Source of the DNA: Sunxiuqinia indica
Lineage (GTDB): Bacteria > Bacteroidota > Bacteroidia > Bacteroidales > Prolixibacteraceae
Length of the DNA: 64,000 nucleotides
Assembly: GCF_009847015.1 (NCBI RefSeq)
Contig: NZ_WVEM01000008.1
Location: 62,001-126,000 of the forward strand
Reading direction: 5' to 3'
Shown: piece after piece, positions 14,383 to 60,106 of the stretch
Layout of the letters: every line of letters starts with the position of its first letter
Numbering within the stretch: the stretch's first letter is position 1
Position numbers and translations under genes: made by a program
The notes under the pieces: generated by a model
Told to the model about the DNA's origin: nothing
The model's input: the letters and a program-made list of their open reading frames with translations, nothing else
Databases searched by the model: none

Positions 14383-14780
14383 GGGGCTGACTGGTTTTGA
14401 CAGCGGGTAGAAGAGGTGTGTAAGCATGGCGAGCTTAGGTTGTTGGCTCGTTAATCCTAATGATCAAACTTTTAATTGGCGAAAACAATTACGCTCTTGC
14501 TGCGTAACCGAATTAACAGTAGGTTAACCGCTTAATCCCGGTACCAGGTACTGGGACAAGACATCGCCCGGATGCTATTGCTTTGAGGCTATCCGGTCAG
14601 GCGGTGCAAAAAATCGAGGCTAGTTGAATGGTTGCTTCGTTCATTCAGCGAAAATTAAGAAGCTAAGGTAGTGGTCGGTGGCCTTGATCCAGCTACTACT
14701 CGAAAACCAAGTCGAGGCTAATCATGTAGAAAGCACATTGCTTCCTCGTTTGGACCCGGGTTCGATTCCCGGCAGCTCCA
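14383..14780 (+). ncRNA. ssrA: Transfer-messenger RNA (tmRNA)
   Basis: The 398-base RNA rescues stalled ribosomes. The 5' end GGGGCTGACTGGTTTTGACAG and 3' end GGTTCGATTCCCGGCAGCTCCA form the alanine-like acceptor (GGGGCTG with CAGCTCC, one G-U) and T arm. The tag frame at 14478-14507 encodes GENNYALAA followed by TAA, the usual Bacteroidota tag; the first alanine comes from the charged tmRNA. CCA is not encoded. Its 3' end is the apparent attachment site of the islands that follow: near-copies occur at 26,328-26,347 and 60,087-60,106. Confidence 0.97.
14761..14780 (+). repeat. Left attachment site (att-1): 3' end of ssrA
   Basis: These last 20 bases of tmRNA match the copy at 60,087-60,106 at 18 of 20 positions and the copy at 26,328-26,347 at 17 of 20. 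Integration at tmRNA 3' ends by tyrosine recombinases is well known; the integrated element restores the tmRNA end. A decayed integrase gene follows at 15,037. Confidence 0.75.
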
Positions 14781-14814
14781 CTTTTTTACATACAATTTAC
14801 AATCAAAAAACATT

Positions 14815-14842
14815 AAAGCACTGAAATTCAGTGCTTTTTTTT
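14815..14842 (+). terminator. Terminator after tmRNA
   Basis: AAAGCACTG (14815-14823) pairs with CAGTGCTTT across a short AT-rich loop, followed by a run of eight T in all. It lies inside the putative island, so it would be supplied by the element. Confidence 0.85.
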
Positions 14843-14891
14843 ATTTTTCAGGATACCAGATAAAATCAAATAAAACCATAATTTAGGTGAA

Positions 14892-14946
14892 CAATTCGGT
14901 TAACAAATCTCCAATCCATTTTTGTTAACCGAATTGCTCCTATTTC
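14892..14946. repeat. 13-base inverted repeat beside ssrA (possible integrase arm sites)
   Basis: CAATTCGGTTAAC (14892-14904) is repeated as its exact reverse complement GTTAACCGAATTG at 14934-14946, 29 bases apart. The same core (GAACRATTCGGTTAMC) recurs close to both other attachment repeats, at about 26,259 and 60,019. That placement fits binding sites for the element's recombinase or excisionase. Confidence 0.55.
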
Positions 14947-15036
14947 ACTGTTAAACAATGTGTTAAAAGGGTCTAAATTTTACTATTTAAAATTATTTTT
15001 CTTAATTTACACACAAAAATCAGTGAACATTTTAAC

Positions 15037-15954
15037 ATGAATACATTCTATACGTTTAATCTTCTTTTTTACTTGCGCACAGATCGCAAAAAAGATGACT
15101 CTCTTTATCCAATCTATATGCGGTTACAGTAGATGGGAAACGAGCCGAACTATCAACTAAACGATTCATTAATCGCGACAATTGGGACTCTAAAGCCAAT
15201 ATGGCCAAGGGATTTAAAAGTGAGGTTAAGCAGCTGAATCAATTTTTGGAATCATTGAGAACGCTCATGAATGATTACCACACAAAGATGGTAAAAATGG
15301 GTGAAGAAGTCACTGCTCAGCACCTTAAAAATAAATTTCTCGGCATTTCAGAAGACAGAAGAATGCTCATTGAGGTGTTTGAATATCATAATCACCAACT
15401 AAAAGAATTGGAAGGGACAAGTTATGCATCAGCAACGATTAAACGATATACAACTACACTAGACCATATAAAAGCCTTCCTGGTGTTTAAGTATAAACTT
15501 AATGATATTCCTCTAAACCGTTTAAAATATTCTTTCATCACAGATCTGGAGCATTATTTCAAAGTAACCAGAAAGTGCAACCACAACACGACAATTAAAT
15601 ACATTAAGAATTTTAGAAAGGTAATTAACCTGGCGATTAAAAATGGATGGTTGTTCATACAGCAGGTATCCGAACAAGAAAACAGAAGATCACATCTTCC
15701 CTATTTTCACAAATCAAAGAATGAATGCTTATTTAAAAGAAATTGCCGATTTAGCATCTGTCGATAAAAACCTGACTTTCCATATTGCAAGACATACTTT
15801 CGCCACGACAGTTACACTAGCCAATGGTGTACCAATCGAATCTATAAGCTCAATGTTAGGCCATAAGAGTATCCGAACAACTCAGATTTACTCGAAAGTC
15901 ATTAATGCAAAAATCAGTAAGGATATGGATAAGCTAAAAAGGAAATTAAGCTGA
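15037..15954 (+). pseudogene. Tyrosine recombinase (integrase) pseudogene 1
   Basis: A Bacteroidota-type phage integrase is recognisable but broken. It begins at ATG 15037 (MNTFYTFNLLFYLRTDRKK), meets a stop at 15130 through a one-base frameshift, and resumes in the next frame with TVDGKRAELSTKRFINRDNWDSKA, through the SAM-like core-binding domain (TIKYIKNFRKVINLAIKNGW). The frame then shifts again near 15,640 and roughly 100 residues carrying the first catalytic Arg are missing. The C-terminal catalytic part is intact: HIARHTFATT (HxxR), LGHKS and the tyrosine of TTQIYSKV. Lying 256 bases inside the ssrA attachment site, it is the likely integrase of island A, now inactive. Confidence 0.85.
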
Positions 15955-16304: not shown

Positions 16305-16335
16305 ATTGTATTATATGATATTTGATGTATTTTTG
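16305..16335 (+). promoter_or_regulatory. Promoter of the GNAT/Crp gene pair
   Basis: ATTG (TTG at 16306-16308) is followed after 19 bases by TATTTTTG (16328-16335), a full Bacteroidota promoter match, 31 bases before the acetyltransferase ATG. Confidence 0.6.
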
Positions 16336-16366
16336 CTCTCTAAAATATGTGACGACTCCGAATATT

Positions 16367-16855
16367 ATGAAAACTACAATTGCAAAATCAGATGATCTGA
16401 AAGAGATCATTTCACTTTTCACAAATACGATTAATTCAGTTTGTGCCAAAGATTACTCACCTCAACAGCGTGCAGCCTGGACTGCCGGAGCTAAAAACAC
16501 CGAACGGTGGCGAACGAAACTCGAACAGCAATATTTTATAGTGGCACGACAGGAAGAAACGCTCCTTGGTTTTGCTTCGCTCGACAACAACTATATAGAT
16601 TTCCTCTTTGTACACAAAGATTTCCAGGGACTCGGAATTGCCAAACAATTGTATGACGCATTATTGCAAAAGGCCATCGAAACGAGTGTTGGAACCCTTA
16701 GATCTAATGTAAGCCTCACCGCCCGTCCCTTTTTCGAAAAAATGGGCTTCGAGGTGATCCGAAAACAGGACAATCCAACCCGAGGAGTGAATCTTACCAA
16801 CTTCAAAATGGAAAAACGTCTAGAAAAGAAAACAGAAATCGAATCTTTACAATGA
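16367..16855 (+). CDS. GNAT-family N-acetyltransferase
   Basis: The 162-residue protein has the GNAT fold pattern: LGFASLDNNYIDFLFVHKDFQGLGIAKQLYDALL (motif A, with the acetyl-CoA loop QGLGIA) and a C-terminal ARPFFEKMGFEVIRKQ (motif B). Such enzymes move an acetyl group from acetyl-CoA to an amine; the substrate is unknown. ATG 16367 is chosen because it starts the conserved domain (MKTTIAKSDD) and follows the promoter at 16305-16335 with a usable leader. The Crp-like regulator gene begins five bases after its stop, so the two are probably cotranscribed. Confidence 0.8.
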   Translation: MKTTIAKSDDLKEIISLFTNTINSVCAKDYSPQQRAAWTAGAKNTERWRTKLEQQYFIVARQEETLLGFASLDNNYIDFLFVHKDFQGLGIAKQLYDALLQKAIETSVGTLRSNVSLTARPFFEKMGFEVIRKQDNPTRGVNLTNFKMEKRLEKKTEIESLQ

Positions 16856-16859
16856 TTTT

Positions 16860-17417
16860 ATGGAACAACTGATCAACTATATAGAAGAATTCGTTAAACT
16901 CGACGATGACGCTAAAGCCGCTTTGCACGAATTGACAGAAATGGAACATTTCTCTAAAAACAAATACATCCTCGAGCCGGGTCAGCGTTGCAATAAAATT
17001 TGGTTTCTCAAACGAGGTATGGTTCGAAAATTCTATCTCAATGACGGCCAGGAAGAAACCGTGTGGATTCATACTGAAAATCAAACTTTCACATCTCTGG
17101 AGAGCTATGCGCAAAATACTCCTTCCAAGGAATACTTGCAAGCATGTGAAGATTCTGAACTTATTTGCATTACAAAAGGCAATAGCGAAAAGCTGGCTGA
17201 ATTTCCAAAGATTGTTGCCTTTGTAAATGCAATGATGGGTAGGGAATTTGCCAACATCGATAAACATACCAAAGCCCTTAATCAGCGCGATGCAAAAGGG
17301 AAATATGAATATTTGAGAGAAATTGCTCCTGAACTCCTTAAAAGGGCAAAACTCGGCCACATCGCTTCAATTATTGGTGTCTCAAGGGAAACTGTCAGCA
17401 GGATTAGGAAAGCATAA
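16860..17417 (+). CDS. Crp/Fnr-family transcriptional regulator 1
   Basis: The 185-residue protein has a cyclic-nucleotide-binding-like beta barrel (about 25-115, with GQRCNKIWFLKRGMVRKFY) and a short C-terminal helix-turn-helix (LGHIASIIGVSRETVSRIRKA). The phosphate-binding residues of true cAMP receptors (RxA in the GExA loop) are not evident, so the ligand is unknown, as in most Bacteroidota members of this family. It follows the GNAT gene after five bases and precedes an alpha/beta hydrolase. It is a clear paralogue of the regulator at 18,725, sharing GQRC, QACED, and a KYEYL..APE..KRAKLGHIAS block. Confidence 0.82.
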   Translation: MEQLINYIEEFVKLDDDAKAALHELTEMEHFSKNKYILEPGQRCNKIWFLKRGMVRKFYLNDGQEETVWIHTENQTFTSLESYAQNTPSKEYLQACEDSELICITKGNSEKLAEFPKIVAFVNAMMGREFANIDKHTKALNQRDAKGKYEYLREIAPELLKRAKLGHIASIIGVSRETVSRIRKA

Positions 17418-17485
17418 TTTTGTGATCTACATCAAAAGAAAACCTCTTTTTCCTTTTCAACTTTGCCAAATAAATTTTTTAAGAA

Positions 17486-18328
17486 ATGGCAAAGAAATCA
17501 ATTTACAAAACAGAAAAAGGAAAACAACTTATTCAAAACAACTACTCCCAATTACTTTCAAACTGGGCGCAACCCTGTAAACAACAGTTTATAAAAACTC
17601 AGCTTGGCGATACTTTTGTGTTGGAAAGTGGAAAGGTTGATGCCCCAGCAGTAATTTTATTGCATGGTTCCGGTTCAAATTCGGCAATGTGGATGACCGA
17701 TGCTAAAATATTATCCGAGCGCTATCATGTATTTGCTGTTGATATCGTTGGCGAATGCGGTAAAAGTGCTGAAACACGCCTTCCTTTCAAGAACAACAAT
17801 TACTCTGACTGGCTGCTTGAAATAATCAACCAGTTAAATATTTCAACAACAGCTATTATCAGCAATTCACAGGGTGGATGGATTGCCCTCGATTTTGTAA
17901 TTAAATATACCGAAAGAATTACCAAACTGGTTCTGATTGCAACAGCGGGCGTAACGAATATCCGCCTAAAAACGTTTTTTTGGATTATAGTAACATCACT
18001 ATCCGGGCAAAAAGGATTCGATAAACTCAACCAGATGGTTTATGGCGATTTAGAAATTGACCAACAGAGTCTGGCATTTGCAAATCTTGTCAGGCAACAT
18101 TATGTGCCTAGAACCGATGCATTACCTACATTTTCGAATGAGCAACTACAACAAATCAAGTGTCCGGTTTTATTTATTGGTGGCGAAAACGATTGTTTTT
18201 ATGTTTCAGAAAAAACGGCTAAACGCCTTGAACAGAATATTGAAAACGCTAAAACATTGGTTCTTAAAAATTCGGGACATGTTGTCATCAATCAAATAAA
18301 TACGATCATTCCATTTTTGGAAAATTAA
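17486..18328 (+). CDS. Alpha/beta hydrolase
   Basis: The 280-residue protein has the alpha/beta hydrolase fold with oxyanion-side motif LLHGSGSNSAMW, nucleophile elbow SNSQGG (in place of the common GxSxG), acid in GGENDCF, and catalytic His in NSGHVV. No signal peptide is present, so it is cytosolic. Family members are esterases, lipases or other hydrolases; the substrate cannot be read from sequence. It lies 68 bases after the first Crp-like regulator, and might be its target. Confidence 0.8.
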   Translation: MAKKSIYKTEKGKQLIQNNYSQLLSNWAQPCKQQFIKTQLGDTFVLESGKVDAPAVILLHGSGSNSAMWMTDAKILSERYHVFAVDIVGECGKSAETRLPFKNNNYSDWLLEIINQLNISTTAIISNSQGGWIALDFVIKYTERITKLVLIATAGVTNIRLKTFFWIIVTSLSGQKGFDKLNQMVYGDLEIDQQSLAFANLVRQHYVPRTDALPTFSNEQLQQIKCPVLFIGGENDCFYVSEKTAKRLEQNIENAKTLVLKNSGHVVINQINTIIPFLEN

Positions 18329-18724
18329 ATATATGAAATAACGACAGAAGTATTTGATAAAAATGAAACATGGCGCATAAAGTATTACGACATATGTGCA
18401 GTAGTTACACATATTTTGCTTTCAAATAACATTGCAAGTCAACAAAATATTATATTTTTGCAGTGCATGAATATACAATTTAATTCTACATCTACCCGAC
18501 AATTGATGTCGGTATAACAGACAGGTAACCACGAATATACCCATTGCGGATTATTCATACCTGTCATTCTATTCTGTTTGATGTTAAAGCAACATCCTAA
18601 AGTGGTGTGTACTTTAATATCTCAGTGATTATTTCCATTTTTCAAATAACCTTCGATGAAAAGCCTTTGTGTTTTCCATCAAAACAACTGCATTAAACGA
18701 TGATGTGGTTTTAAATTGTTGAAA
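18329..18724. other. Intergenic region ahead of second Crp-like regulator
   Basis: About 400 bases with a strong promoter at 18,431-18,460, a small palindrome (CGACA/TGTCG near 18,495), and a 16-codon open frame starting at 18,466. I cannot tell whether that frame is translated. No other signal is visible. Confidence 0.4.
18431..18460 (+). promoter_or_regulatory. Promoter upstream of Crp-like regulators 2 and 3
   Basis: TTG (18432-18434) is followed after 18 bases by TATTTTTG (18453-18460). It is 265 bases from the next gene, implying a long leader. Confidence 0.55.
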
Positions 18725-19282
18725 ATGTATCAACTGATTAACAAAATAGATTCTACCAAAAAACAGAATTACAAAATTATAGAGCGATTGAACGAAATTG
18801 CCTCACCTGAACTCTATTCAAAAAATCAATACCTGCTTGATTACGGACAGCGCTGTCATAAAATATGGTATTTAAAATCGGGTATGGTTCGGCGCTATTA
18901 TATACACGAAGGCAAGGAAATTACCTTGTGGTTGTATGCTGAAAATGAAATTTTTACAGAATTTCAAAGTTTCTCGCGCCGTATGCCTTCCGGAGTTTAT
19001 ATTCAAGCTTGTGAGGATACTGAAGTAGTAAGCATTTCACGATCTGAATATCTAAGTCTCAGACAAAATCCTGAAATGTGGTTATTCTGTATTTTGATGA
19101 TTGAAAATGTTTTTCTCGACATTGACCAGCATCTGCGTAATCTTCAAACAAAAGATGCAAGAGGAAAATACGAATACCTGCAAGAGCAAGCTCCCGAAAT
19201 AATCAAACGTGCCAAGCTGGGGCACATTGCTTCAATGCTCGGAATCTCGCAAGAAACTTTGAGCCGGATACGCAGAGGCTGA
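18725..19282 (+). CDS. Crp/Fnr-family transcriptional regulator 2
   Basis: The 185-residue protein has the cNMP-binding-like barrel (GQRCHKIWYLKSGMVRRYYIHEGKEITLW) and a C-terminal helix-turn-helix (LGHIASMLGISQETLSRIRRG). It is a paralogue of the regulator at 16,860, by eye near half identical, with the same length. ATG 18725 is used; an upstream in-frame TTG adds three residues. Regulator 3 follows after 23 bases. No ligand-specific residues are recognised. Confidence 0.82.
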   Translation: MYQLINKIDSTKKQNYKIIERLNEIASPELYSKNQYLLDYGQRCHKIWYLKSGMVRRYYIHEGKEITLWLYAENEIFTEFQSFSRRMPSGVYIQACEDTEVVSISRSEYLSLRQNPEMWLFCILMIENVFLDIDQHLRNLQTKDARGKYEYLQEQAPEIIKRAKLGHIASMLGISQETLSRIRRG

Positions 19283-19305
19283 ACATTAAATTCTTAATTT
19301 TGAAC

Positions 19306-19896
19306 ATGACTGGATCGATCCAAAACTTCAGAAAATTTATTGAAAGCTACATTCCGATAACTGATGCAGAGTGGGAAACAATTTGTTGCGACTTTAGGTT
19401 GAAGTTATTTGAGAAAGACGATTTGATAGTTGAACAAGGGAAGATATGCCGCCATTTCTATTTCTTTGAAGAAGGCATAATCCGCGTTTTCTATAATATT
19501 GATGGTAACGATATAACCAAATCATTTGCCATTCCTCCGTATTGTTTTACCTCGAAGATCAGTTTCAGAAACCAGATTCCATCGGAAGAAAGTATTCAGG
19601 CGCTTGAGAATACAGTGGTTTGGGAAATCACTTACAGACAATACAGAAGACTGGAGAAAATAGAGACGTGGAACCGTTTTATGCATAAGCTCATTAATGA
19701 GATTCAGGAGTATACTGAAAAACGTATGCTAGAATCTAAAATATACACAGCCGAACAAAATTACGAGCTTTTACTTAATCGATATCCGGCACAACTGATG
19801 CAAAAAATTCCATTAAAACATCTGGCATCATTCTTAGGAGTAGCACCTCAATCTTTAAGCCGAATTAGAAAAAAGTTACATAATAGCAGAAGTTAA
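19306..19896 (+). CDS. Crp/Fnr-family transcriptional regulator 3
   Basis: The 196-residue protein shows the same barrel plus helix-turn-helix layout (VEQGKICRHFYFFEEGIIRVFY; C-terminal LKHLASFLGVAPQSLSRIRKK) but is much more diverged from regulators 1 and 2, resembling the large Bacteroidota cAMP-binding-like group with a QAL(E) motif in the barrel. It begins 23 bases after regulator 2, and 60 bases later an HSL-type hydrolase starts, so the three may share a transcript. ATG 19306 is preferred to a TTG six bases upstream. Confidence 0.8.
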   Translation: MTGSIQNFRKFIESYIPITDAEWETICCDFRLKLFEKDDLIVEQGKICRHFYFFEEGIIRVFYNIDGNDITKSFAIPPYCFTSKISFRNQIPSEESIQALENTVVWEITYRQYRRLEKIETWNRFMHKLINEIQEYTEKRMLESKIYTAEQNYELLLNRYPAQLMQKIPLKHLASFLGVAPQSLSRIRKKLHNSRS

Positions 19897-19956
19897 CATA
19901 GGTGAATTTGCTTTTGCAAACAAAGCGGGAACTTTGTAGCCGAAAAGAAAATCATT

Positions 19957-20883
19957 ATGGCAAGTTTTAAAAGTAAAATCCTGATTGGTATCATGCGAAA
20001 GCGCCATTGGTTTAATGGGCAATGGAAAAAACCGGAAATAGCAAACTCTGTGGAAGCAGTACTGGCTTTTCGGACTGAATGTGAAAAAGGCGCCGAACGG
20101 TTTGGCAAAATTCCGGATGGCATTGAAGTAAAGCCCGAGGTAATTAATATGATTGTTTCGGAATGGCTGATACCGGAAAATGCAGTGCCCGATAAACTGC
20201 TTTTTTATGTACATGGTGGCGGTTATGTTTCGGGCTCGTGCAACGATCACCGAAGCATTGTTTCGAAAGTGTCTAAAGCTACACGATTAAAAACCCTGCT
20301 TTTCGAATACGGACTGGCTCCTGAAAATCCTTTCCCTGCGGCATTGAATGACACGATAACGATATATCAGGAAATATTGAAAAAAGGTTATTCCCCCAAA
20401 AACATTATCATGATGGGTGAATCGGCAGGCGGCGGACTTTGTCTGGCAAGTTTGCTTGCGATTCGCGACCAGAATATTCCCCTGCCCAAAGCAGTAGTAG
20501 TCATTTCGCCCTGGACCGACCTGAGTTGTTCTGGGGAATCGTACAGCACAAAAAACAAAGTGTCACTGGCGCCGCTGAATAGTTGGACAGTCTTCAGTGG
20601 TTTTTATGCTGCCGGGAGCAATATCACTGATCCGTACATTTCGCCTTTATTTGGAGATTTGAAAGGATTGCCGCCCCTGTTTATCAACGCCGGAAATGCC
20701 GACGAACTGTTTGATGATTCCCTCCGTTTATACGAAAAAGCCAGACATGCAGGAATCGATGTCGCCTTTCGCGAAGGCAAAGATATGATACATTGTTATC
20801 CTTTACTGTCTCCTCTTTTTCCAGAAGCCACGGACGCAATGAACGAAATTACTGCGTTTATCAAACTTCACCTCGAAAAGTGA
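19957..20883 (+). CDS. Alpha/beta hydrolase, hormone-sensitive-lipase (acetyl esterase) family
   Basis: The 308-residue protein carries the HSL-family oxyanion motif HGGGYVSGS and nucleophile elbow GESAGGG, with acid in NADELFDD and catalytic His in MIHCYP. These enzymes hydrolyse short acyl esters. No signal peptide is visible. It sits between Crp-like regulator 3 and a GNAT acetyltransferase within island A. Substrate unknown. Confidence 0.85.
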   Translation: MASFKSKILIGIMRKRHWFNGQWKKPEIANSVEAVLAFRTECEKGAERFGKIPDGIEVKPEVINMIVSEWLIPENAVPDKLLFYVHGGGYVSGSCNDHRSIVSKVSKATRLKTLLFEYGLAPENPFPAALNDTITIYQEILKKGYSPKNIIMMGESAGGGLCLASLLAIRDQNIPLPKAVVVISPWTDLSCSGESYSTKNKVSLAPLNSWTVFSGFYAAGSNITDPYISPLFGDLKGLPPLFINAGNADELFDDSLRLYEKARHAGIDVAFREGKDMIHCYPLLSPLFPEATDAMNEITAFIKLHLEK

Positions 20884-20963
20884 TTTCTTGACCTATGTCA
20901 AAAATATTCCAAAGGGCTTTTCGGTCCTTTGCTGCCAATTAGAAACAAACAAATAATGCCTCA

Positions 20964-21521
20964 ATGACAACTGAAAACATTACAATTAGAGAAACAGAAA
21001 ACAACGATCTACACACTATTTGCGAAGTAGAGAAACTCGCATTTGGTTACGACAAAGAAGCCCAATTAACAGTGGCTCTTTTGAATGATTCAACAGCCAG
21101 ACCTCTATTGTCCCTTTTGGCATATCACAACGAAAAAGCAGTCGGGCACATTCTTTTTACAAGAGTTTATATAAATGAAATGTCGGAAGATCAACCCTTG
21201 GTTCATATTCTAGCGCCGCTGGCCGTTATTCCTGAATACCAGAAACAGGGAATTGGCGGAATGCTGATAAAAGCCGGGCTGGAAAAGCTCAAAAAAGCTG
21301 GATCGAAAATGGTATTTGTACTCGGTCATATCGGGTATTACGATAAACATGGGTTTATTCCCAACGCCGGGAAACTGGGCTACCAGGCTCCTTACCCAAT
21401 TCCTGAAGAATTTGCCAACGCCTGGATGGTGCAGTCGCTAAATACGGAAGATTTTACAGTAAAAAAAGGAACGGTTGTATGCGCCAACGAATTGAATAAA
21501 CCCGAACACTGGAGAGAATGA
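20964..21521 (+). CDS. GNAT acetyltransferase (YhbS-like)
   Basis: The 185-residue protein has GNAT motif A (HILAPLAVIPEYQKQGIGGMLIKAGLEKL) followed by VLGHIGYYDKHGFIPN, the arrangement of the YhbS group of putative N-acetyltransferases. The target amine is unknown. Its last four bases overlap the start of the leucine-rich-repeat gene, so the two are translationally coupled. Confidence 0.85.
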   Translation: MTTENITIRETENNDLHTICEVEKLAFGYDKEAQLTVALLNDSTARPLLSLLAYHNEKAVGHILFTRVYINEMSEDQPLVHILAPLAVIPEYQKQGIGGMLIKAGLEKLKKAGSKMVFVLGHIGYYDKHGFIPNAGKLGYQAPYPIPEEFANAWMVQSLNTEDFTVKKGTVVCANELNKPEHWRE

Positions 21522-22417
21522 CAAGCAAAGAATTATATACGAAATTGACCGAGGCCTATTCTCAGGAGAACCTGAACAGGATTACCGGGAAACTGATTCT
21601 TCTTTACAAAAACAGGAATTATGCGAGCATCCGGGCAATCGCGAATAAGATTTCGAAGTACGTTGACATCAACGAAGAGAGAGATGCCAAATGTTTCTCG
21701 AAACTGGTGGTGTTGTATCATCCCGATAAAGGCCATGCCATACGCGAAGAAATTCAGCAACTGTACGAGCAAAACAAGTTTGAAAGCTTGCAAAAATTTG
21801 CCCACATCCATCTTGTTCAGGACATCGAGAACCTGGTAGTTAAGGTTGTTGATGAAAGTATTGATTACCGACCCGAATATGTATGGGACACAGAAAGTGA
21901 TGACGGAGAATACCCAGACCCGGGAGCCGATGAAGACACTTACTACGATAATCAGGATGACGTTGACATCGAACGTTCATTTTTCAACCTTATAAAAATC
22001 AGGGAATACGGAAGAACAAACATCGAACTTCCGAATTACTACCTCGAAGATTTTGAGGAGTTTGAACTGGCTGAATCGGAACTGGATTTACTCGATGGCG
22101 TGGAATATTGTACACACATTAAAATTCTGGACGTGTCGAATAATAATTTAACCGATATCAGCAATTTATGGGATTTAAACGATTTGGAAGAACTGTATCT
22201 CTCCAACAATCAAATCGGTTACATCGATGCGTTGAGTAATCTTTCCAAACTCAGGATCGTTGATCTGTCGGGGAATGAAATCGATGACATCAGTCCACTT
22301 TTCGATTTGGAAAATCTTGAATATGTGAATTTGGTTGGAAATCGGATCCCAAAAATCAGCTGGCAGAACTGGAGAAGAAAGGTTGTGTTGTCGTTAATTG
22401 ATAATAAAATAGTATAA
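21518..22417 (+). CDS. Leucine-rich-repeat protein
   Basis: The 299-residue protein has a helical N-terminal half (about 1-125), an acidic linker (residues 125-150, DTESDDGEYPDPGADEDTYY), and about four leucine-rich repeats of SDS22/internalin spacing at the C-terminus (ILDVSNNNLTDISNLWDL, ELYLSNNQIGYIDAL, IVDLSGNEIDDISPLFDL, YVNLVGNRI). No signal peptide or anchor is seen, so it is probably cytosolic and protein-binding. It overlaps the acetyltransferase gene by four bases and is followed one base later by a hydrolase gene. Specific role unknown. Confidence 0.8.
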   Translation: MTSKELYTKLTEAYSQENLNRITGKLILLYKNRNYASIRAIANKISKYVDINEERDAKCFSKLVVLYHPDKGHAIREEIQQLYEQNKFESLQKFAHIHLVQDIENLVVKVVDESIDYRPEYVWDTESDDGEYPDPGADEDTYYDNQDDVDIERSFFNLIKIREYGRTNIELPNYYLEDFEEFELAESELDLLDGVEYCTHIKILDVSNNNLTDISNLWDLNDLEELYLSNNQIGYIDALSNLSKLRIVDLSGNEIDDISPLFDLENLEYVNLVGNRIPKISWQNWRRKVVLSLIDNKIV

Positions 22418-22418
22418 T

Positions 22419-23306
22419 ATGAAGCAAAAATTAAAAATATATTTAGGATGGGTTTTAATTATTATAGGGTTAATATTCCTTGCAACTAAGCTAAAAGCCC
22501 AATCAAATTACCCTCAAATGGTTGCATCGAAAGATGGTACGCAAATATCGTATGAAGTTTACGGTACAGGTGAACCGACACTTGTGTTTGTACATGGCTG
22601 GAGTTGCGATGCAAGATACTGGCAGAAACAAATAGCTGAGTTTTCCCGAAACAATCGAATTATTTTGATAGACCTTGCGGGACATGGCCACTCGGGAATG
22701 ACCCGTGAAAAATATACCATGAAGGCATTTGGAGAAGATGTGCAGGCGGTGGTGGAAGCAACCGAAAGCAAAAATGTGCTGCTTATCGGTCACTCATTTG
22801 GTGGAACCGTTATTGCCGAAGCAGCGCGGTTAATGCCCAAAAAAGTGAGAGGACTTATCGGTGTCGATACGTTTGAAAACATCGAGTACCCCCTAAGTCG
22901 CGAAGAGTTAAATGGAATGCTGCAGCCATTTTCAGAAGACTTTCAGGCCGGAACACGACAATTTGTTCAACAAATGCTACTTCCTGACAAAGATACCTTA
23001 CGACGGAATTGGATTATTGCAGACATGTCTGCAGCACCTCCATCTGTAGCTGTAAACGCTATGAAAGATTATTTGACACAAAGTGTAACCGGTGAGGCTG
23101 CCCAAATTTTCGAAGATATCCATTTGCCTGTTTGGGTTGTAAAAGGAGATTTATGGCCGGTCGATTATGAGGCGAATCGAAGACACATGCAATCTTACGA
23201 GGTTATTGAAATAGAAAATGCAGACCATTTTCTTATGCTGAATCGACCAGATGAATTTAACCAGGCATTAAAACAAGCCATTGAGACACTTACTTATAAA
23301 AAATAA
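22419..23306 (+). CDS. Exported or membrane-anchored alpha/beta hydrolase
   Basis: The 295-residue protein begins with a hydrophobic signal or anchor (KIYLGWVLIIIGLIFLATKLKAQ). The hydrolase domain has FVHGWSCDARYW, nucleophile elbow GHSFGGT, and a C-terminal acid and His (NADHFLMLNRP). The domain resembles the haloperoxidase/epoxide-hydrolase-like branch, but the substrate is unknown. It follows the LRR gene after one base and precedes a methyltransferase by 29 bases. Confidence 0.82.
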   Translation: MKQKLKIYLGWVLIIIGLIFLATKLKAQSNYPQMVASKDGTQISYEVYGTGEPTLVFVHGWSCDARYWQKQIAEFSRNNRIILIDLAGHGHSGMTREKYTMKAFGEDVQAVVEATESKNVLLIGHSFGGTVIAEAARLMPKKVRGLIGVDTFENIEYPLSREELNGMLQPFSEDFQAGTRQFVQQMLLPDKDTLRRNWIIADMSAAPPSVAVNAMKDYLTQSVTGEAAQIFEDIHLPVWVVKGDLWPVDYEANRRHMQSYEVIEIENADHFLMLNRPDEFNQALKQAIETLTYKK

Positions 23307-23335
23307 TAATTACAAATTAATAATACGCGTTAAAC

Positions 23336-48649: not shown

Positions 48650-48656
48650 TTTATTA

Positions 48657-51934: not shown

Positions 51935-51950
51935 ATGTTTCAACTAAAAC

Positions 51951-53756
51951 TTATTCCCAACCTGGATTTTGTTCGATATTTGGATTAAGTACGATTTGAT
52001 TTGAAGGAATAGGGTACAAATAATAGTAATCCGGAAAAGATGGCCCCTCTTTGAAAATCTCATTATTTGAATAATAAATATATCCCTCGCTTGCACCATT
52101 GTCAATTGGAATTTGGTTGTCATAATCAGAACCGACTATCCATCTTCCAAGTTTCTTTTCAGCAGCATAATCCATCTTCTTCCAACGTCTCAAGTCATCG
52201 AATCGAAAAGGCTCAGCCATTAATTCAATAGCTCGTTCTCGCCTAATCTCCCAAAGAACTGGATTAATATCCTGATCGCGGGTAGGATCAAAGTCGGCTC
52301 CAATATTAGCAACGACCATTGGGCTTACATCTCCCCTTTCTCTCAATTTATTAATTGAAAGGTCTGCAACTGTCTGATCAAATTGCCCAAGCTCCCATTT
52401 CGCTTCAGCATAGTTAACTAAAACTTCACCCATTCGAAATATAGGCGCGTCATTTATTCCCTCATGTTGTATATCGGTAATTCTATTGTAATATTTAAAT
52501 ACCTGATAACCGGTTCTTGTAGCAAAGAATGCTTCTCCAATATTATAATCTTTAAAATGCGGAGATGTATGCAAAACATTTAAACCACCTGTTTGTCTTG
52601 CTGGCAGGTATTTATGCTTATCATCAGATATAGTCATCATCAAATCAATATATTCCCGATCTGCTGCGATTCCGGTATATTCGAAATCAGCAACATCTCC
52701 TACCACTTTATCAACATTATAAGGAGGCAGCACTGTATAATAAAGGCGCCTATCCCTATTTCTAAATTCATCAAATGCATTATGGTCTCCGTCAAATAAG
52801 GGGCTCGTCCATCTGGTCTGCCCATCTTTTAACAAATACATATCAACTGCCTTTTTGCTCAAATCCCAACTATTATTCCGGTTGTAAAAAGGAAGCCCAT
52901 GATCAATAATTCCTAATTCATATTGTTTATAAAATAAGATTCCAGAAACTCCACTTAAATCTTCACTATTAAAAACCTCATCATAATTTGAATGCAAGGT
53001 GGGATGATCCTCAATTAACTTCTCTGAAGCTTGGACACAGGCAGTTAAGTACTTATCAGAGTCGCCTAGTCCATGGTACTTTCGCCATGTTCCTTCAAAC
53101 AAACCAAACCTTGATATTAGCGCTCTGACAGCATCTACTCCAATTGTATTTTCAAGAACATTATTTGTACCTGGCTCCAGTATGTTTTCTTCAGCATATA
53201 TTAAATCGGCCAGAATATTCGAGGCGACTTCATCTCTTGGGGTACGTGAGGCATACAATATTTCTTCATCCGTATCCGAAACAACTTTGTCTATCCATGG
53301 AACATCTCCATACTTGGAAATCTTGGTAAAATAATCATATGCCCTGAAAAAACGACCAACACTTCTCCAATGGTCTATTTCTAATTCAGTCATTTCTGAA
53401 TTATCTATGTTTGCCAGCATCAGATTGATTCTTCTTATAGTTGAAAAATCCCAAGCATCCGATGAAGTAGGAACGTTTATCCTATTCCATACCCAGTCCG
53501 ATCCAAAGATATTTTCATTATCCATAATAAAATCGGCATTAAACTCACTGTTCAACAGATCCCTCCACGGCTCATAACCTTCAAATACGCCATAAAATCC
53601 CATGGCATAAGCTTGAGTACTTTGAAAACTCTGAAATGCGTTTGACTCCGAAAAAGATAATTTTGGGCTTTTATCGAGCGTATCGTCTAAACACGCCGAT
53701 TGACTGACAACAGCAATCAAAAATATATATCGGATTAATTTATTTATATTTTTCAT
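51951..53756 (-). CDS. SusD/RagB-family glycan-binding lipoprotein
   Basis: The 601-residue protein has a lipoprotein signal (FLIAVVSQSAC) and the SusD-like fold pattern: an N-terminal TPR-rich part (AYAMGFYGVFEGYEPW, RRINLMLANID, RSVGRFFRAYDYFTKISKYGDVPW) and a C-terminal RagB/SusD domain (IFRMGEVLVNYAEAKWELG, WEIRRERAIELMAEPFRFDDLRRWKKMDYA, NPNIEQNPGWE). It sits on the outer membrane and binds the glycan for the SusC pore. It follows the SusC gene after 11 bases. Confidence 0.96.
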   Translation of the reverse strand: MKNINKLIRYIFLIAVVSQSACLDDTLDKSPKLSFSESNAFQSFQSTQAYAMGFYGVFEGYEPWRDLLNSEFNADFIMDNENIFGSDWVWNRINVPTSSDAWDFSTIRRINLMLANIDNSEMTELEIDHWRSVGRFFRAYDYFTKISKYGDVPWIDKVVSDTDEEILYASRTPRDEVASNILADLIYAEENILEPGTNNVLENTIGVDAVRALISRFGLFEGTWRKYHGLGDSDKYLTACVQASEKLIEDHPTLHSNYDEVFNSEDLSGVSGILFYKQYELGIIDHGLPFYNRNNSWDLSKKAVDMYLLKDGQTRWTSPLFDGDHNAFDEFRNRDRRLYYTVLPPYNVDKVVGDVADFEYTGIAADREYIDLMMTISDDKHKYLPARQTGGLNVLHTSPHFKDYNIGEAFFATRTGYQVFKYYNRITDIQHEGINDAPIFRMGEVLVNYAEAKWELGQFDQTVADLSINKLRERGDVSPMVVANIGADFDPTRDQDINPVLWEIRRERAIELMAEPFRFDDLRRWKKMDYAAEKKLGRWIVGSDYDNQIPIDNGASEGYIYYSNNEIFKEGPSFPDYYYLYPIPSNQIVLNPNIEQNPGWE

Positions 53757-53767
53757 ATTTCATATTT

Positions 53768-56700
53768 TTAAAAAGTAATGTTTACTCCTGCACTATAATT
53801 CTTCATATATGGATAATTCCCTTCAGATCCTGTTACCTTATCAAGCTCCGGATCAAGTCCATCAGGTAAATGGTCAAAGTTGAATAGATTCTCCCCTGTA
53901 AAAAACACCCTGAAATTAGAAATCCCAAATCTATTGAGAAGGCCTTTAGGAAGGCTATAACCTAAAGTTATATTCTTAACCCTGAGATAGGCTCCATTGT
54001 ATAAATATCGAGTTTGTACTAAACGGCTATACCTGTAATTACCTCGTCCATAAGTGTAGTTTCGTGGGTAAAACGCATCTGTATTTTCAGGGGTCCAATA
54101 ATCTAACTGATGCTTGTAAACTGTTGTCCAACGATGAGTAAAAGGAAATACTTCAGGAGATCCCCCATACCATAAATCACGTTTGCCAATTCCTTGCAAG
54201 AACATACTAAAATCAAAATTTTTATATTCTGCTGAAAAATTGAATCCAAACTGCATCCTCCGGGTATCATTCCCAATTACACTCATGTCTCCTGGATCAT
54301 CAAGTGTTTTATTTCCTTGATAAATAACACCATCATCATTAATATCCACATACCGTATGTCTCCGGGGTTTGGATTTGTGCTTCGATATGGGGCAATATT
54401 ATCCAAAAGTGTTCCTCCTGTGAGGTCATCATTCAGCGTTCCGGGAACAAAATCATCAACCGTAAAGAATCCCATGGTCGTATACCCCCAGATTTCTCCA
54501 AGTGTTTTCCCTTCGTAATACGTATTAAACAGCCCCGCGTCGTTATCGTACTTTGTAATCTCGGTTTGAGAATCATATAAGTTGAATCCCACGCTGTAAT
54601 GGAAATCATTTATCTGATCTTTCCATATAATATCCAATTCCCAGCCCTTAGTCGACAGATCGGCAACATTCTGTAACGGGGCATCTCCCCCAAGTACAGC
54701 AGGCAGTTCTGCACCCTGAGCAAGCATGTCTAATGTTTGACGATTATACCAGTCAAAACTCGTTGATAAGCGATTATTAAACAATCCAAGGTCAATCCCA
54801 ATATTCAACGTTCTTACCGTCTCCCAGGTAAAATCTCCGCTAACCAATTTTGGCGATTTTAAACTGGTAGCTTCAATTCCGGTATTACTATTTATCCAAG
54901 CAACAGAATAAGAATTCATTGTGGGCAAGTAGGCATAATTATCAATATCCTGGTTTCCAATTTCTCCGATTGAGCCTCTTAATTTCAATCTAGAAACAAC
55001 CCGGTCAAGGCTTGTCATGAATGGCTCATTTGAGACTTTCCAAGCTCCACTTAAAGATGGGAAGAACCCAAAGCGGTTTCCTTCTGGGAACCTTGAAGAA
55101 CCATCATATCTTCCATTGAATTCTAATAGATACTTGTCTTTATAGGCATAATTCAATCGACCGAAGAACCCCAATACACCATAGTCTGAATAAAAATCGT
55201 TTGCATCGAGTATTCCTATTCCAGATGACAGGCCTTGCACATCGGGAGTAAGCAGTTCCTGCCTTGATGCTGAGATCCCACTATTGTCGTTTTCCTCTTG
55301 GTTTATTCCAATCAAAACACCAAGTTCATGTTCTCCTATCTTTTTTGAATAATTTCCATATACATTAAGCGCCCGATAGTTACTTTCTGACCTAGATTCT
55401 GCATAGGACGATCTAGTTGGATTATAGGGCTCATAATTAAACGTTGCCGGATGAATCCATCCCGGAACATAATTGGGTGTGCTCTTCCTTCCATTTTTCC
55501 TCTGGAAAGTGTATTCACCGACTATACTGATATCATCTGACACTTGATAGGTTGCTTTCCCAAACAAACGTATCACTTCACTAAGTTCAGTTCTTGCTGG
55601 TGCCAATTTCACCCAATTCGCGGGAGTTCTATATGGAACTGTTTCTCCATTTTCTAAGGTTCCATAACCCAATGGAATCGTAGACGACATATTAATCGCA
55701 TCTTTATATATCTGTTCCCAATCACCTCCGGCAGGATCACTTCTTAAACCATTTTTGTAAATCATGTTAACCGAAGTCGTGAGTCTGGAAGTAAGGTCTG
55801 TTGTAAGATTCATACTTGCATTATATCTCCGATAGGTATCCTTATCTCCTGCCATAATACCATCCTCATCATTATAGCCTAACGACATTCTGTAAGTGCT
55901 TTTCTCAGATCCACCACTAACCGAAAAATTGTGTTGCTGCTGAAAACCCGAATTATTTAGTAGATCGGCAACGGCATTGGTCCCCCGAACAACATACCTT
56001 AACCCATTTTCATCTTTAATTATGCCATCAGGGTAAGCAGAAGGGTTACTCTCGTATTCTTCAATGTATTCAAGCCAGGTATCAACATTTTGACCGGTCC
56101 AAAAATTACTTTGGTTCCAATCTTTCAATGCTTGCATCAATTCCCTTGGAGAAGCTTTTTCCGCATAAGTAGAGGGAGAACTCCATCCAAAATTGGTTGA
56201 ATAGTTGAATTGAGGCTGTTGATTTCGGTTCCCTTTTTTCGTCGTAATCAATACCACCCCGAATGCAGCCCGTGCTCCATAAATGGCAGTAGAAGCAGCG
56301 TCCTTTAATACAGAAACATTTTCAATATCTCTTGGGTTGATATCTTCCAATTGCATCGGCACATTATCTACCAGTATCAATGGCTCTCCTCCATTAATAG
56401 AAGTAAACCCCCGAATATTAATATCTGTTTCACTACCAGGCTGCCCTGACCCATAGGTTATTTGCAAGCCCGGGATAGCTCCCTGAAGCGCCTTTGAGGC
56501 GTCAGTCACAGGCCTGCTCCCCAGTACAGTTGTCATATCAACTGAGCTGACAGCCCCTGTTAAGTTTACTTTTTTCTGAGTCCCATACCCTACGGCTACA
56601 ACTTCTTCAATGCCAATGGCATCTTCAGCCATCACCACATTGATGGAAGTTTTCCCCATCACAGAAATCTCTTGCGTTCTCATACCCACAAATGAGAAAA

Positions 56701-57238
56701 CCAACACACCATCTCCCGGGACATTTGAAAGCGAATAATTACCGTCGCCATCGGTAATTGTCCCGTAAGTAGTGCCTTTTATTACTACTGTAACACCGGG
56801 AAGAGGGGTTCCGCCAGAATCGGTCACTTTCCCATTAACGGTTATATCAACAGAAACGGAACTGAACTTCGATGAATTCAATGCGATCTGCCGGTTATTA
56901 ATATCGTAAGTGATCCCTGTATTGATAAAGACTTTATTGAGTATCTCCGGAACCGACTGGTCTTCGCAATTGATATTTACTTCCTGCGACACATCCACTT
57001 TCGTGGCATCGTACATGAAAAAGAACTGGGATTTAGTTTCTATTTCCTGTAAAACATCTTTTATCTTTGCATCTGCCATATTCAGGCTTAAACGAGTGCT
57101 CTGCGAGTATGAACTGATAGCAAGTACCTGCGAGATTGTAGCTAGAAACAAAACAAGAATTGTCCTCATTGTTTTACATAGTTTAGATCTCCAGATTTTA
57201 TAAAAATCCGGGGCCATTAAAAATTGTTTTTTTTTCAT
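53768..57238 (-). CDS. SusC/RagA-family TonB-dependent receptor with STN signalling domain
   Basis: The 1,156-residue outer-membrane receptor has a signal region (to about 45), an STN domain (about 48-105, SLNMADAKIKDVLQEIETKSQFFFMYDATKV) that talks to a FecR anti-sigma factor, a carboxypeptidase-D-like repeat (GKVTDSGGTPLPGVTVVIKGTTYGT), a plug (VGYGTQKKVNLTGAVSSVDM, NIRGFTSINGGEPLILVDNVP) and a beta barrel ending MKNYSAGVNITF. It imports oligosaccharides with SusD. The STN domain with FecR and sigma genes directly upstream indicates substrate-triggered trans-envelope control. Confidence 0.96.
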   Translation of the reverse strand: MKKKQFLMAPDFYKIWRSKLCKTMRTILVLFLATISQVLAISSYSQSTRLSLNMADAKIKDVLQEIETKSQFFFMYDATKVDVSQEVNINCEDQSVPEILNKVFINTGITYDINNRQIALNSSKFSSVSVDITVNGKVTDSGGTPLPGVTVVIKGTTYGTITDGDGNYSLSNVPGDGVLVFSFVGMRTQEISVMGKTSINVVMAEDAIGIEEVVAVGYGTQKKVNLTGAVSSVDMTTVLGSRPVTDASKALQGAIPGLQITYGSGQPGSETDINIRGFTSINGGEPLILVDNVPMQLEDINPRDIENVSVLKDAASTAIYGARAAFGVVLITTKKGNRNQQPQFNYSTNFGWSSPSTYAEKASPRELMQALKDWNQSNFWTGQNVDTWLEYIEEYESNPSAYPDGIIKDENGLRYVVRGTNAVADLLNNSGFQQQHNFSVSGGSEKSTYRMSLGYNDEDGIMAGDKDTYRRYNASMNLTTDLTSRLTTSVNMIYKNGLRSDPAGGDWEQIYKDAINMSSTIPLGYGTLENGETVPYRTPANWVKLAPARTELSEVIRLFGKATYQVSDDISIVGEYTFQRKNGRKSTPNYVPGWIHPATFNYEPYNPTRSSYAESRSESNYRALNVYGNYSKKIGEHELGVLIGINQEENDNSGISASRQELLTPDVQGLSSGIGILDANDFYSDYGVLGFFGRLNYAYKDKYLLEFNGRYDGSSRFPEGNRFGFFPSLSGAWKVSNEPFMTSLDRVVSRLKLRGSIGEIGNQDIDNYAYLPTMNSYSVAWINSNTGIEATSLKSPKLVSGDFTWETVRTLNIGIDLGLFNNRLSTSFDWYNRQTLDMLAQGAELPAVLGGDAPLQNVADLSTKGWELDIIWKDQINDFHYSVGFNLYDSQTEITKYDNDAGLFNTYYEGKTLGEIWGYTTMGFFTVDDFVPGTLNDDLTGGTLLDNIAPYRSTNPNPGDIRYVDINDDGVIYQGNKTLDDPGDMSVIGNDTRRMQFGFNFSAEYKNFDFSMFLQGIGKRDLWYGGSPEVFPFTHRWTTVYKHQLDYWTPENTDAFYPRNYTYGRGNYRYSRLVQTRYLYNGAYLRVKNITLGYSLPKGLLNRFGISNFRVFFTGENLFNFDHLPDGLDPELDKVTGSEGNYPYMKNYSAGVNITF

Positions 57239-57368
57239 AAATTTGTTTTGATTTGAAATTAGACATCAAATTATTTTGCCCTTCATGCTAATGATTCGGG
57301 CAGAGATTAAAGGGGATGTTACCAGCATCTCCTTTTTTCTTATAATTCTCCATTAATTCCCCATGTCA

Positions 57369-58415
57369 CTATTTTGGGGTTAATAATACTTTCGTTTTAT
57401 TTTCATCATCTCCTTTAATTATTTTGTAATTGACAGAGCATGTGAAAGCAATCGATTTGAGAATATCCTCAAAGGGCTCATCTTTAATAGTGGCCGTGAA
57501 CAATGAATTGAAAATCGCCGAGTTTTCGACTTCAATCTGGATGTCATACTTTCTTTGAAGTATCGGTATAACATCTAACATCGGCTCGTCCCTAAAAATC
57601 AAAAAACCCTCTTTCCATTTTAAAAACCGATCAAGTTCCACTTGCCTCATTGAAACAGTTCCAGATGAAATGGCGTAATGTGCCTTTTGTCCTGGAAACA
57701 GATCGTAATCAAACCCTGTTTCTTCTGGTTTTAGCAATTTAACTTTCCCCGATTCAAGCACGACCTCAATATTTTTCTGTCCGGGATAGGCATTGACATC
57801 AAACTGGGTTCCTAAAACTTTGACCTCCAGTCCACCACAAAAAACGCTTAATGGCATTTTTTTGTTTTTTGTAACCTGAAAAAAGGCCTGCCCCTCAAGG
57901 TAAATTTCCCTTTTTTTGACTGCAAAATCAGTTGGGTATTTTACTTCTGTCCCCGAGTTTAACCAGATTACGGTGCTGTCTGGCAAGATGAGTTTAGAAA
58001 TTTGACCATTTTCAGCAATAGCCGTGGTGAAATTCGCTCCGGATTCCAAATCCTTTGCTGGGTTAAACTTTTGATAAAAGAAGAGGCCCGAAATACAAAT
58101 CGCTAAAAGAAATATTGCTGCATACTTTAGTGCAGGACTGCCCAAAAACCGAAGGTTATACTTTTTCCTGTCCTTTTTTATGCGCTTAGCAATTTTATCT
58201 GCCAATAGTTTCTTTTGCTCAGCACTGATTTTATGATTGGTGATTTGAAATAATCGAAGTTCGTCCCTTAACGCGGTGATAATGATTTTTTCATCTGGAT
58301 TTTTACCAAAATAGAAATCCCAATATTCACTGATATCATCAGAAGGTTCATAAACCCACTTGATGAACAACGGATTGTCAATATATTTTTCGATTCCCTT
58401 CATTTTAATTTTCAT
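57369..58415 (-). CDS. FecR-family anti-sigma factor
   Basis: The 348-residue protein has a cytosolic N-terminal region (about 1-92), one transmembrane segment (YAAIFLLAICISGLFFY, about 96-113), and a periplasmic FecR domain (ANFTTAIAENGQISKLILPDSTVIWLNSGTEVKYP, then GTQFDVNAYPGQ) with a C-terminal STN-like domain (FEDILKSIAFTCSVNYKI). It holds the sigma factor at 58,522 until the SusC STN domain signals substrate. Spacing to the SusC gene is 130 bases, to the sigma gene 106. Confidence 0.95.
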   Translation of the reverse strand: MKIKMKGIEKYIDNPLFIKWVYEPSDDISEYWDFYFGKNPDEKIIITALRDELRLFQITNHKISAEQKKLLADKIAKRIKKDRKKYNLRFLGSPALKYAAIFLLAICISGLFFYQKFNPAKDLESGANFTTAIAENGQISKLILPDSTVIWLNSGTEVKYPTDFAVKKREIYLEGQAFFQVTKNKKMPLSVFCGGLEVKVLGTQFDVNAYPGQKNIEVVLESGKVKLLKPEETGFDYDLFPGQKAHYAISSGTVSMRQVELDRFLKWKEGFLIFRDEPMLDVIPILQRKYDIQIEVENSAIFNSLFTATIKDEPFEDILKSIAFTCSVNYKIIKGDDENKTKVLLTPK

Positions 58416-58521
58416 TGTTTACTGATATAGTAAGGAATTTTGAAAAAGGTGGACAAGAAAAATCGCTTTTTTTTGGGGATGATCCGTTGATGGCTAAAAA
58501 AGCGCTGCGAATGAAGGATAT

Positions 58522-59187
58522 TTAGTTTTTCGCTATTTTCGAAAAGAGGACAAAAAGTTCAATCGCTTTATCTTTTACAATCTCTCGAAACGAGGAAATA
58601 GTCCTGTAAACAAGTTTTTTTACCGAGCTTGGTTTGATCCCAACAATATCAGCGATTTCTGCATATCTCAAACCGCTGTAGAACTTTAAAAAAATTACTT
58701 CTTTTTTTTGTGAGTCCAATTGATTAATGAGGCTCTCGATCAATTCAATCTTTTTTTCTTCTATTTTTTTTTCATGAAGGGCATCAACTTCAAGATAGAA
58801 ATTGAAACCAAATTTCCCGCTTTCTAAATCTGAGTTATCAGATTTTTCCCTTTTCACCTTCTCTAACAGGATTCGTTTATATGCCCTCAATAAATAATAT
58901 CGGATAAAATTTGGTGTGATTATTTGCTCCCGTTTAGACAATATATAAAGAAACAAGTCCTGGATAGCATCTTCCACCAAATCAGAATTTGTTGTTAATT
59001 TTCGTCCGTAGCTAAACAAAAAGTCAACATGCTCATAATAAATCGTATCAAAAGCTTTACGATCACCTTTTTTAAATTTGTCCCAGACCTCCTGCCACTG
59101 AGAACCTTCAATATTTTTATCCAGGCGGTTGTCCACTTTTTGCGCTATTTGAGTAGTAAAGGAAGGATAAATTTTAATATTCTCCAA
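58522..59187 (-). CDS. ECF RNA polymerase sigma factor
   Basis: The 221-residue protein has sigma70 region 2 (about 38-105, WDKFKKGDRKAFDTIYYEHVDFLFSYGRKL and DAIQDLFLYILSKREQI) and region 4 (about 155-210, QKKEVIFLKFYSGLRYAEIADIVGIKPSSVKKLVYRTI). It should direct transcription of the PUL under FecR control. No ATG occurs before the conserved domain: the frame opens with TTG at 59,187, and an in-frame GTG (Val18) is the other option. It is the first gene of the PUL in transcription order. Confidence 0.93.
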   Translation of the reverse strand: MENIKIYPSFTTQIAQKVDNRLDKNIEGSQWQEVWDKFKKGDRKAFDTIYYEHVDFLFSYGRKLTTNSDLVEDAIQDLFLYILSKREQIITPNFIRYYLLRAYKRILLEKVKREKSDNSDLESGKFGFNFYLEVDALHEKKIEEKKIELIESLINQLDSQKKEVIFLKFYSGLRYAEIADIVGIKPSSVKKLVYRTISSFREIVKDKAIELFVLFSKIAKN

Positions 59188-59419
59188 TCGGATTTGAACT
59201 TATGCGGTTCCGTCCATTAAAAAACATCTCTATAAAAAACTGACTTTAAGGGCATAAGTAAATATAACATTGTCTTATTCTGCACACCCATAGAGCAAAA
59301 TCAAATCTTTTCACCATCATTTTTGTCAAAACTCACTTCTCTACAGAAGATGATAATATACTCATTTTTCTTGTATAACACTCATTTCATCCTTACGTTG
59401 CACTTATATTTTTCAAGTA

Positions 59420-59984
59420 ATGAATAATAGCGCTCATTTTACTCAAAAACACCCATTTATCATGGAAAACAGTGTCCTGAAAAAGGATATATAGTTGGCT
59501 ACGCTGCAATCATCGATAAATTAAGACTACCAATTCCAATTCCCTATCAAATTACGTTGATATGTAACTAGGATAAAAACTATGAAACCGATGATTGGAA
59601 AATCCTTCCCAAATCATATCTACCTGAGGATAGTTTTGAAATAACAGGAATTGAAGCATTGTACAAACATTTGATTTTTGCACTGAAATATGAAGGTATC
59701 AACCTCCTGGTATTTCGAAAAATTACTCAGCATTACTCAACGGAACAATTAAGAACTCTGGTTGATATTGAACCGACCTGTCAATACAGCAGGAGAATAT
59801 GTTTTTTTTTGTAGATGATGAATTTGAAACGCCGGATAAAATGGTTGCTTTATTGGTTTGGTTCTTAGAACAGAACAACGGAGTGCTATCTAAACGTGCG
59901 GAAGAAAAAGAATATGAAGTTTTATCCGAAACCGAAGTTAATCAGATTGAAATGAGGTATAGTGAAATATTCAAAAAGCAATAA
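59420..59984 (+). pseudogene. fic pseudogene (second copy, internally deleted)
   Basis: The sequence is near identical to parts of the fic gene at 24,656. It starts ATG AAT AAT AGC at 59,420, loses one base near 59,450, has TAG in place of a Gln codon near 59,570, and then jumps from the codons for QYSRRIW (residues 122-128) to VDDEFETPDK (residues 466 on). About 1 kb, including both the inhibitory motif and the FIC active site, is gone; a T-run lies at the joint. The last 55 codons remain open (59,815-59,984). It lies 102 bases before the right attachment repeat, as the intact copy does before att-2. Confidence 0.9.
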
Positions 59985-60086
59985 TTAATACCAAAATAAA
60001 TGTAAAAACAACGCTGGTGAACGATTCGGTTAACACTCAAATCCACCTCTCCACAAACAGCTTATTTAGTGCCAAATACCTATATT

Positions 60087-60106
60087 TTCGATTCCCGACA
60101 ACTCCA
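60087..60106 (+). repeat. Right attachment repeat (att-3), tmRNA 3'-end copy
   Basis: TTCGATTCCCG followed by ACAACTCCA matches 18 of the last 20 bases of ssrA. It is preceded by the shared block AACGCTGGTGAACGATTCGG (from 60,010), also found before att-2. A terminator-like hairpin follows at 60,112, which may be the original ssrA terminator of the uninterrupted chromosome. Confidence 0.72.

Follow-up and report, generated by a model that had tools for sequence, protein, structure and literature searches.

Genomic islands inserted at ssrA, the gene of transfer-messenger RNA (tmRNA), have been described in Dehalococcoides, where they lie in tandem and present a 20-bp direct repeat, an integration module at the left edge and catabolic cargo (PMC3146451). 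They were read as integrative and mobilizable elements (IMEs), and those without an integration module as possible cis-mobilizable elements (CIMEs) (PMC3146451). In the Bacteroidetes, the IMEs NBU1 and Tn4555 have a tyrosine integrase and a MobP-type relaxase and no transfer apparatus of their own, and the same review covers tandem accretion and the decay of IMEs into CIMEs (PMC5704250). In addition, 47 loci with SusC and SusD have been reported on mobile elements of the gut (PMC6907783). Here we analyzed a window of 64,000 nucleotides from Sunxiuqinia indica (Prolixibacteraceae; contig NZ_WVEM01000008.1, positions 62,001 to 126,000), in which ssrA is followed by two further copies of its last 20 bases, decayed tyrosine integrase genes, fic genes and a polysaccharide utilization locus (PUL). 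On the evidence of the sequences, the locus is very probably an accretion of decayed IMEs at the 3′ end of ssrA, which we call CIME-like because the pieces keep their attachment (att) copies.

As far as the passages of these three sources considered here go, the locus resembles the Dehalococcoides islands in its layout and in its reading as IMEs, but belongs to a different phylum, carries different cargo and has a tyrosine integrase in place of a serine recombinase (CcrB-like, DsiB module); no fic gene is named in those passages (PMC3146451). With IMEs of the NBU1 and Tn4555 kind its family shares the tyrosine integrase, the MobP-type relaxase, decay to CIMEs and accretion, whereas the ssrA target and the fic gene at the right end set it apart, and the term tmRNA is absent from the text of the review (PMC5704250). 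Like the PULs of gut mobile elements, it would place a SusC/SusD locus on mobile DNA; that study, however, concerned gut genomes, and neither tmRNA nor fic occurs in its text (PMC6907783). In the literature covered, which included few subscription papers, we recognized neither a fic-ended nor a tyrosine-integrase family of ssrA elements in Bacteroidota. What is new relative to these sources is the element family, its hosts and the right-end fic; ssrA islands, CIME accretion and mobile PULs all have close published precedents.

Repeats and ends of the units behind ssrA

The recurrence of the ssrA 3′ 20-mer at two downstream positions (Table 1), noted in a preliminary description of this DNA, was confirmed and exceeds chance. 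In 100 order-1 Markov sequences, scanned on a single strand, matches of at least 15/20 occurred 0.19 times per window, those of at least 16/20 0.01 times, and those of at least 17/20 never. A merged att pattern searched with up to two mismatches had three copies in the 5.25 Mb genome, all of them in the window and in the same orientation, while its reversed control had none. At 63,542 there is an additional match of 15/20, which is no better than chance. The G+C content was uninformative (37–38% in the islands, 40% in the left backbone and 39% in the right flank).

Two types of integrase and of element end, here named A and B, are found at the locus. Both ends of the segment between 14.8 and 26.3 kb (island A) are of A type, and the segment is read as a single A-type element with a broken integrase and without its mobilization genes. 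The SAM-like and catalytic parts of this integrase sit in different frames and match residues 49–225 and 327–424 of the intact protein of a genome of another genus (G078, described below), the codons between them having been lost, and the fic gene stops 103 bases short of att copy 2. While an IME has an intact integrase and mobilization genes, the integrases of the window are decayed, and no relative of the G078 mobilization proteins was found in it. Island A does correspond to a CIME, in which att sites are kept on both sides and integration and transfer genes are lost; the stretch from 26 to 60 kb, with att copies too, has unlike ends.

That stretch (26.3–60.1 kb) is read as a composite, because a B-type left end, followed by the PUL, is paired with an A-type right end. 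Its integrase stump is 85 and 90% identical to a 408-aa integrase of another Sunxiuqinia genome (G003), and its fic remnant is 86–92% identical to the fic of island A, has lost the segment holding the HPFEDGNGR motif and places its last codon 102 bases before att copy 3. If the stretch is composite, and given that island A is A-type, at least three insertions would have taken place at this ssrA. The preliminary description had seen the same order of parts twice, and this holds for the att copy, the hairpin, the decayed integrase and the fic ending 102–103 bases before the next att copy, with the correction that the second fic is a remnant; its proposal that the second island is a single element does not agree with the two ends.

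The ends were compared through two short motifs. With up to two mismatches, the A motif had eight matches in 14 segments, all at element ends, as were all five matches of the B motif. Their distances to att fell within narrow ranges: 103–105 bases after it for A left ends, 71–73 before it for A right ends, 109 after it for B left ends and 64–65 before it for B right ends. Both motifs are putative arm sites of the integrases. A hairpin scan (loops of 3–8 bases) reported none after att copy 3, although one can be read in the sequence there.

Table 1. Features of the ssrA locus in window coordinates
Feature	Position	Strand	Remarks
ssrA (tmRNA), integration target	14383..14781	+	ARAGORN; Rfam puts the end at 14,783
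att copy 1, last 20 bases of ssrA	14761..14780	+	
Hairpin and T-run after att copy 1	14815..14837	+	Inside the A-type left end
A-type motif, left end	14886..14904	+	105 bases past ssrA; forms part of inverted repeat 14,889-14,939
Decayed A-type tyrosine integrase	15037..15954	+	Frameshifts; about 100 codons gone
Cargo of island A	16322..23983	+	Acetyltransferases, cyclic nucleotide (cNMP)-binding regulators, alpha/beta hydrolases, leucine-rich repeat protein, methyltransferase
fic, open frame	24656..26224	+	PF02661, motif HPFEDGNGR; 94% identical to G078 fic
A-type motif, right end	26256..26274	+	72 bases ahead of att copy 2
att copy 2	26328..26347	+	17/20 identical to ssrA 20-mer
B-type left end	26348..26471	+	Hairpin (26,372-26,404, T-run); B-type motif (26,457-26,471)
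B-type integrase stump	26588..26997	+	N-terminal ~139 codons only, in two frames
PUL	27422..59187	-	DUF5060 protein, 4 sulfatases, GH28-type proteins, GH3, AXE1-type esterase, GH88-like, Sde182-like, two GDSL esterases, pyruvyl transferase-like, SusD, SusC, FecR, sigma factor
fic remnant	59357..59984	+	1,003 bases missing inside
A-type motif, right end	60016..60034	+	71 bases ahead of att copy 3
att copy 3	60087..60106	+	18/20 identical to ssrA 20-mer
Hairpin to the right of att copy 3	60107..60144	+	Also beside an att copy on contig C10 of G004

Related integrases and units in Prolixibacteraceae

The reference for the A type is G078, a single-contig genome of a different genus with an apparently intact unit of 28.4 kb at ssrA. 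It bears out, as one real case, the proposed unit with an integrase at the left, a fic at the right and ssrA and att as bounds. The integrase (424 aa) has arm, SAM-like and catalytic domains, the att copy at +28,418 is identical to the ssrA end in 20/20 bases, and the fic ends 110 bases before this perfect repeat. The unit also holds metabolic cargo, a MobA/VirD2 relaxase (PF03432; 76.9 bits, cut-off 24.6), a MobC_2 protein (37.4 bits, cut-off 27.5), and DnaI-like and HTH_17 excisionase-like proteins, the last two only below the NCBIfam cut-offs. No conjugation apparatus was found among the 27 of its 29 ORFs of at least 80 aa that were scanned with Pfam. With its own integrase and att sites and with relaxase and mobilization genes, the unit has, in these respects, the predicted make-up of an IME. 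The window and G078 are 93% identical in the C-terminal part of the integrase, 89% in its N-terminal part and 91% from fic to att, but only 78% in ssrA. Identity to the fic protein of the window is only 60% for those of G004 and G006, although both genomes belong to the same genus as the window; these values fit a transfer between genera. A plasmid search with the G078 integrase gave 32 records, all below 60% identity. Separately, the A-type left end (14,782-14,840) is similar to what follows ssrA or att in genus g11 (att copy 2 of G078, ssrA of G076), which would be expected of an element equipped with a copied ssrA terminator.

The intact B-type integrase of G003 (JAGXIR010000173.1, "MAG: Sunxiuqinia sp. 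isolate LH_M90", obtained by a scan of contigs with a two-sequence integrase alignment) starts 238 bases past ssrA and was used to search 140 family genomes, with up to 13 candidates scored per genome. Eight of the best 12 matches start 238–265 bases past ssrA (G003, G100, G049, G004, G041, G103, G078 and G087), so that intact integrases of both types do occur in relatives at the place where the preliminary description had suggested looking for them. The other four comprise two at displaced att copies (G004 and G053, the latter with just 12 bases remaining exact), one at a distance of 86 kb from ssrA (G104) and one whose contig has no ssrA (G149); among the weaker matches, by a reading of the match lists, none adjoins ssrA. 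A tree built from 30 integrases grouped the seven B-type and the four A-type sequences in two clades, each with 100/100 support, and a joint clade appeared in 4% of the bootstrap trees, though a single origin of both types is possible.

The gene ssrA was found in 116 of the 140 genomes, and its downstream region was surveyed in 65 of them, a set enriched for integrase carriers whose counts are thus not frequencies; some of its contigs reach only a short way past ssrA, such as 61 bases in G010 and 177 bases in G015. An A- or B-type integrase or remnant lay within 400 bases of ssrA in 11 of the 65, and an additional downstream att copy of at least 16/20 in five, one of them doubtful (G098, 16/20). 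G021 has another kind of integrase beside ssrA. The DNA pattern of the B-type left end was matched in 66 of the 140 genomes, at many unrelated places; of 30 such loci that were read, 10 are at ssrA and three at an ssrA-like repeat, and some have no integrase nearby. Contrary to what a fic-bounded family would imply, the fic gene is no constant part of these elements, since none was found in the 59 kb behind ssrA in G103 (A-type) and G041 (B-type).

Within Sunxiuqinia, the closest of six other genomes is G004 (LysC 94% identical; 69–72% in G001, G005 and G006). Behind its ssrA come a B-type integrase of 449 aa, genes of restriction and NACHT type, genes for DUF6371 and AAA proteins, a fic in reverse orientation, an att copy of 20/20 and a broken A-type integrase. 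On a separate contig, a third att copy (20/20) stands with a fic remnant and the hairpin that follows att copy 3 in the window, and adjoins sigma factor, FecR and SusC-like genes that share the order of those in the window at an identity of about 30%. The interval between ssrA and an att copy of 18/20 in G005 is taken up by another PUL, with GH43, six sulfatases, GH2, a SusC-type receptor and a sigma factor, and a B-type left end comes after this copy; no integrase was found between ssrA and the copy. G004 and G005 likewise hold additional att copies behind ssrA and, together with the att copies and end types of the window, bear out integration and tandem stacking at the ssrA 3′ end. The site is free of islands in G001, where pflB/pflA follow ssrA and no other att copy is present. 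Such a site had been predicted, but with the hairpin at 60,112 and the gene at 60,226 directly behind ssrA; this arrangement was not found, and of the seven genus genomes just one, its own, gave a match to the protein encoded at 60,226.

Other features were observed around ssrA. A reverse-strand fic, 58–59% identical to that of the window, lies directly behind ssrA in G006 (+60 to +1583, between ssrA and pflB) and in locus L027 of G020 (+130 to +1500), two genomes of different genera; neither an A- nor a B-type integrase was found beside them, within the 1.5 kb visible in the case of G020. Upstream of ssrA, reverse-strand integrases of the same superfamily are present in G004 (L035, 3113-4167) and G005 (L039, 2958-4007), beyond the conserved genes after tRNA-Pro, where the window has none. 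An imperfect palindrome of 56 bases (89%) lies at 10357-10412 of the window, between tRNA-Leu and tRNA-Pro.

Formation of the locus and origin of the PUL

We propose that the tyrosine integrase of an incoming circle would recombine the att site of the element with the last ~20 bases of ssrA. The att copy brought by the element would restore the tmRNA 3′ end, and the hairpin just within its left end may substitute for the displaced terminator. Stacking would arise because later elements reuse the same ssrA site. The remnant pieces retain att copies, and a cognate integrase might still move them. In this regard, the view that the island became trapped is not established, given that att copies persist and cognate integrases exist in the genus.

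The PUL has a SusC/SusD pair and degradation genes. Sulfatase domains were matched by Pfam in four proteins and GH28 in three, the third weakly; the proteins at 31,266 and 32,807 are GH28 and that at 45,479 is of Sde182 type. This gene content suggests a sulfated, uronate-containing polysaccharide as substrate. The GDSL esterase gene is tandemly duplicated (47008-48878, 85% DNA identity). We favor, with moderate confidence, that the PUL arrived as cargo of an element. The earlier wording of direct evidence for such travel was too strong, as no intact PUL-bearing element was found in the relatives examined.

Alternatively, the PUL may belong to the resident chromosome, a deletion or rearrangement having placed it between the remnants; this is compatible with accretion for the ends and would make the remnants uninformative on its travel. 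Genomes without these integrases do have SusC-like genes within 30 kb of ssrA (G001, G014, G076 and others), and pflB, the ssrA neighbor in G001 and G006, is missing in the window, whose right flank is rearranged. However, the SusC of the PUL has no relative above 49% identity in the 140 genomes and only 39% in the nearest species, G004 (up to five candidates scored per genome), the PUL abuts the integrase stump within 0.4 kb and the fic remnant within 0.2 kb, and G005 has another PUL between ssrA and an att copy; a resident origin appears possible but less likely. The preliminary model of two complete islands in tandem, of which the second was one PUL-bearing element that moved in one piece before its integrase decayed, would account for the repeated order of parts, and the first unit of G004 has mosaic ends together with an intact integrase; set against a left end and stump of B type facing a fic, a motif and an att of A type on the right, this explanation seems unlikely. 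The fic-att end at 60 kb might instead be a local duplication of that at 26 kb, in which case att copy 3 would mark no insertion. The two ends match by 86–92%, but the 26 kb copy is about equally close to that of G078, in another genus (91%), and to the one at 60 kb (92 and 86%), for which reason a recent duplication is highly improbable. As for chance, the repeats are short (20 bases with two or three mismatches), but the simulation and the genome-wide count ruled it out, the flanks are conserved, and its probability is negligible.

Several observations nevertheless weigh against the accretion of decayed IMEs or, like the SusC-like genes near ssrA already mentioned, against the PUL as cargo. 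In the first unit of G004, whose B-type integrase is intact, the motif at one end differs from that at the other, so ends of unlike type do not necessarily point to two elements. The flank to the right of att copy 3 is rearranged with respect to G004: the block common to both begins at 60,985, and the lysC of this block is found in G004 in the opposite orientation, 119 kb upstream of ssrA. The intact A-type integrase of G103 adjoins ssrA, yet no second att copy of at least 15/20 follows in 59 kb, and the same applies to the B-type G041. In G104, an integrase that does not differ from that of G078 over the compared part stands 86 kb away from ssrA, with no recognizable att, and a looser A-motif search of four segments gave one extra match off an end (G104, +23,689). 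At this G104 integrase (L238, downstream of ssrA), an A-type left end is present, and the place is perhaps a secondary site.

The accretion of decayed IMEs at ssrA points to a concrete site, and to a family of elements, through which PULs and other cargo could reach Prolixibacteraceae. Since both ends and the integrase of the G078 unit are intact, its excision is directly testable, and as three units or remnants have fic at their right end, the question arises of whether Fic proteins stabilize such elements. More tentatively, a pair of ssrA-targeted IME types may circulate among Prolixibacteraceae genera, bringing PULs and catabolic and defence genes, with the right-end fic as a maintenance gene and the decayed copies as exchangeable CIMEs; ssrA might then act as a swap site for polysaccharide diets.

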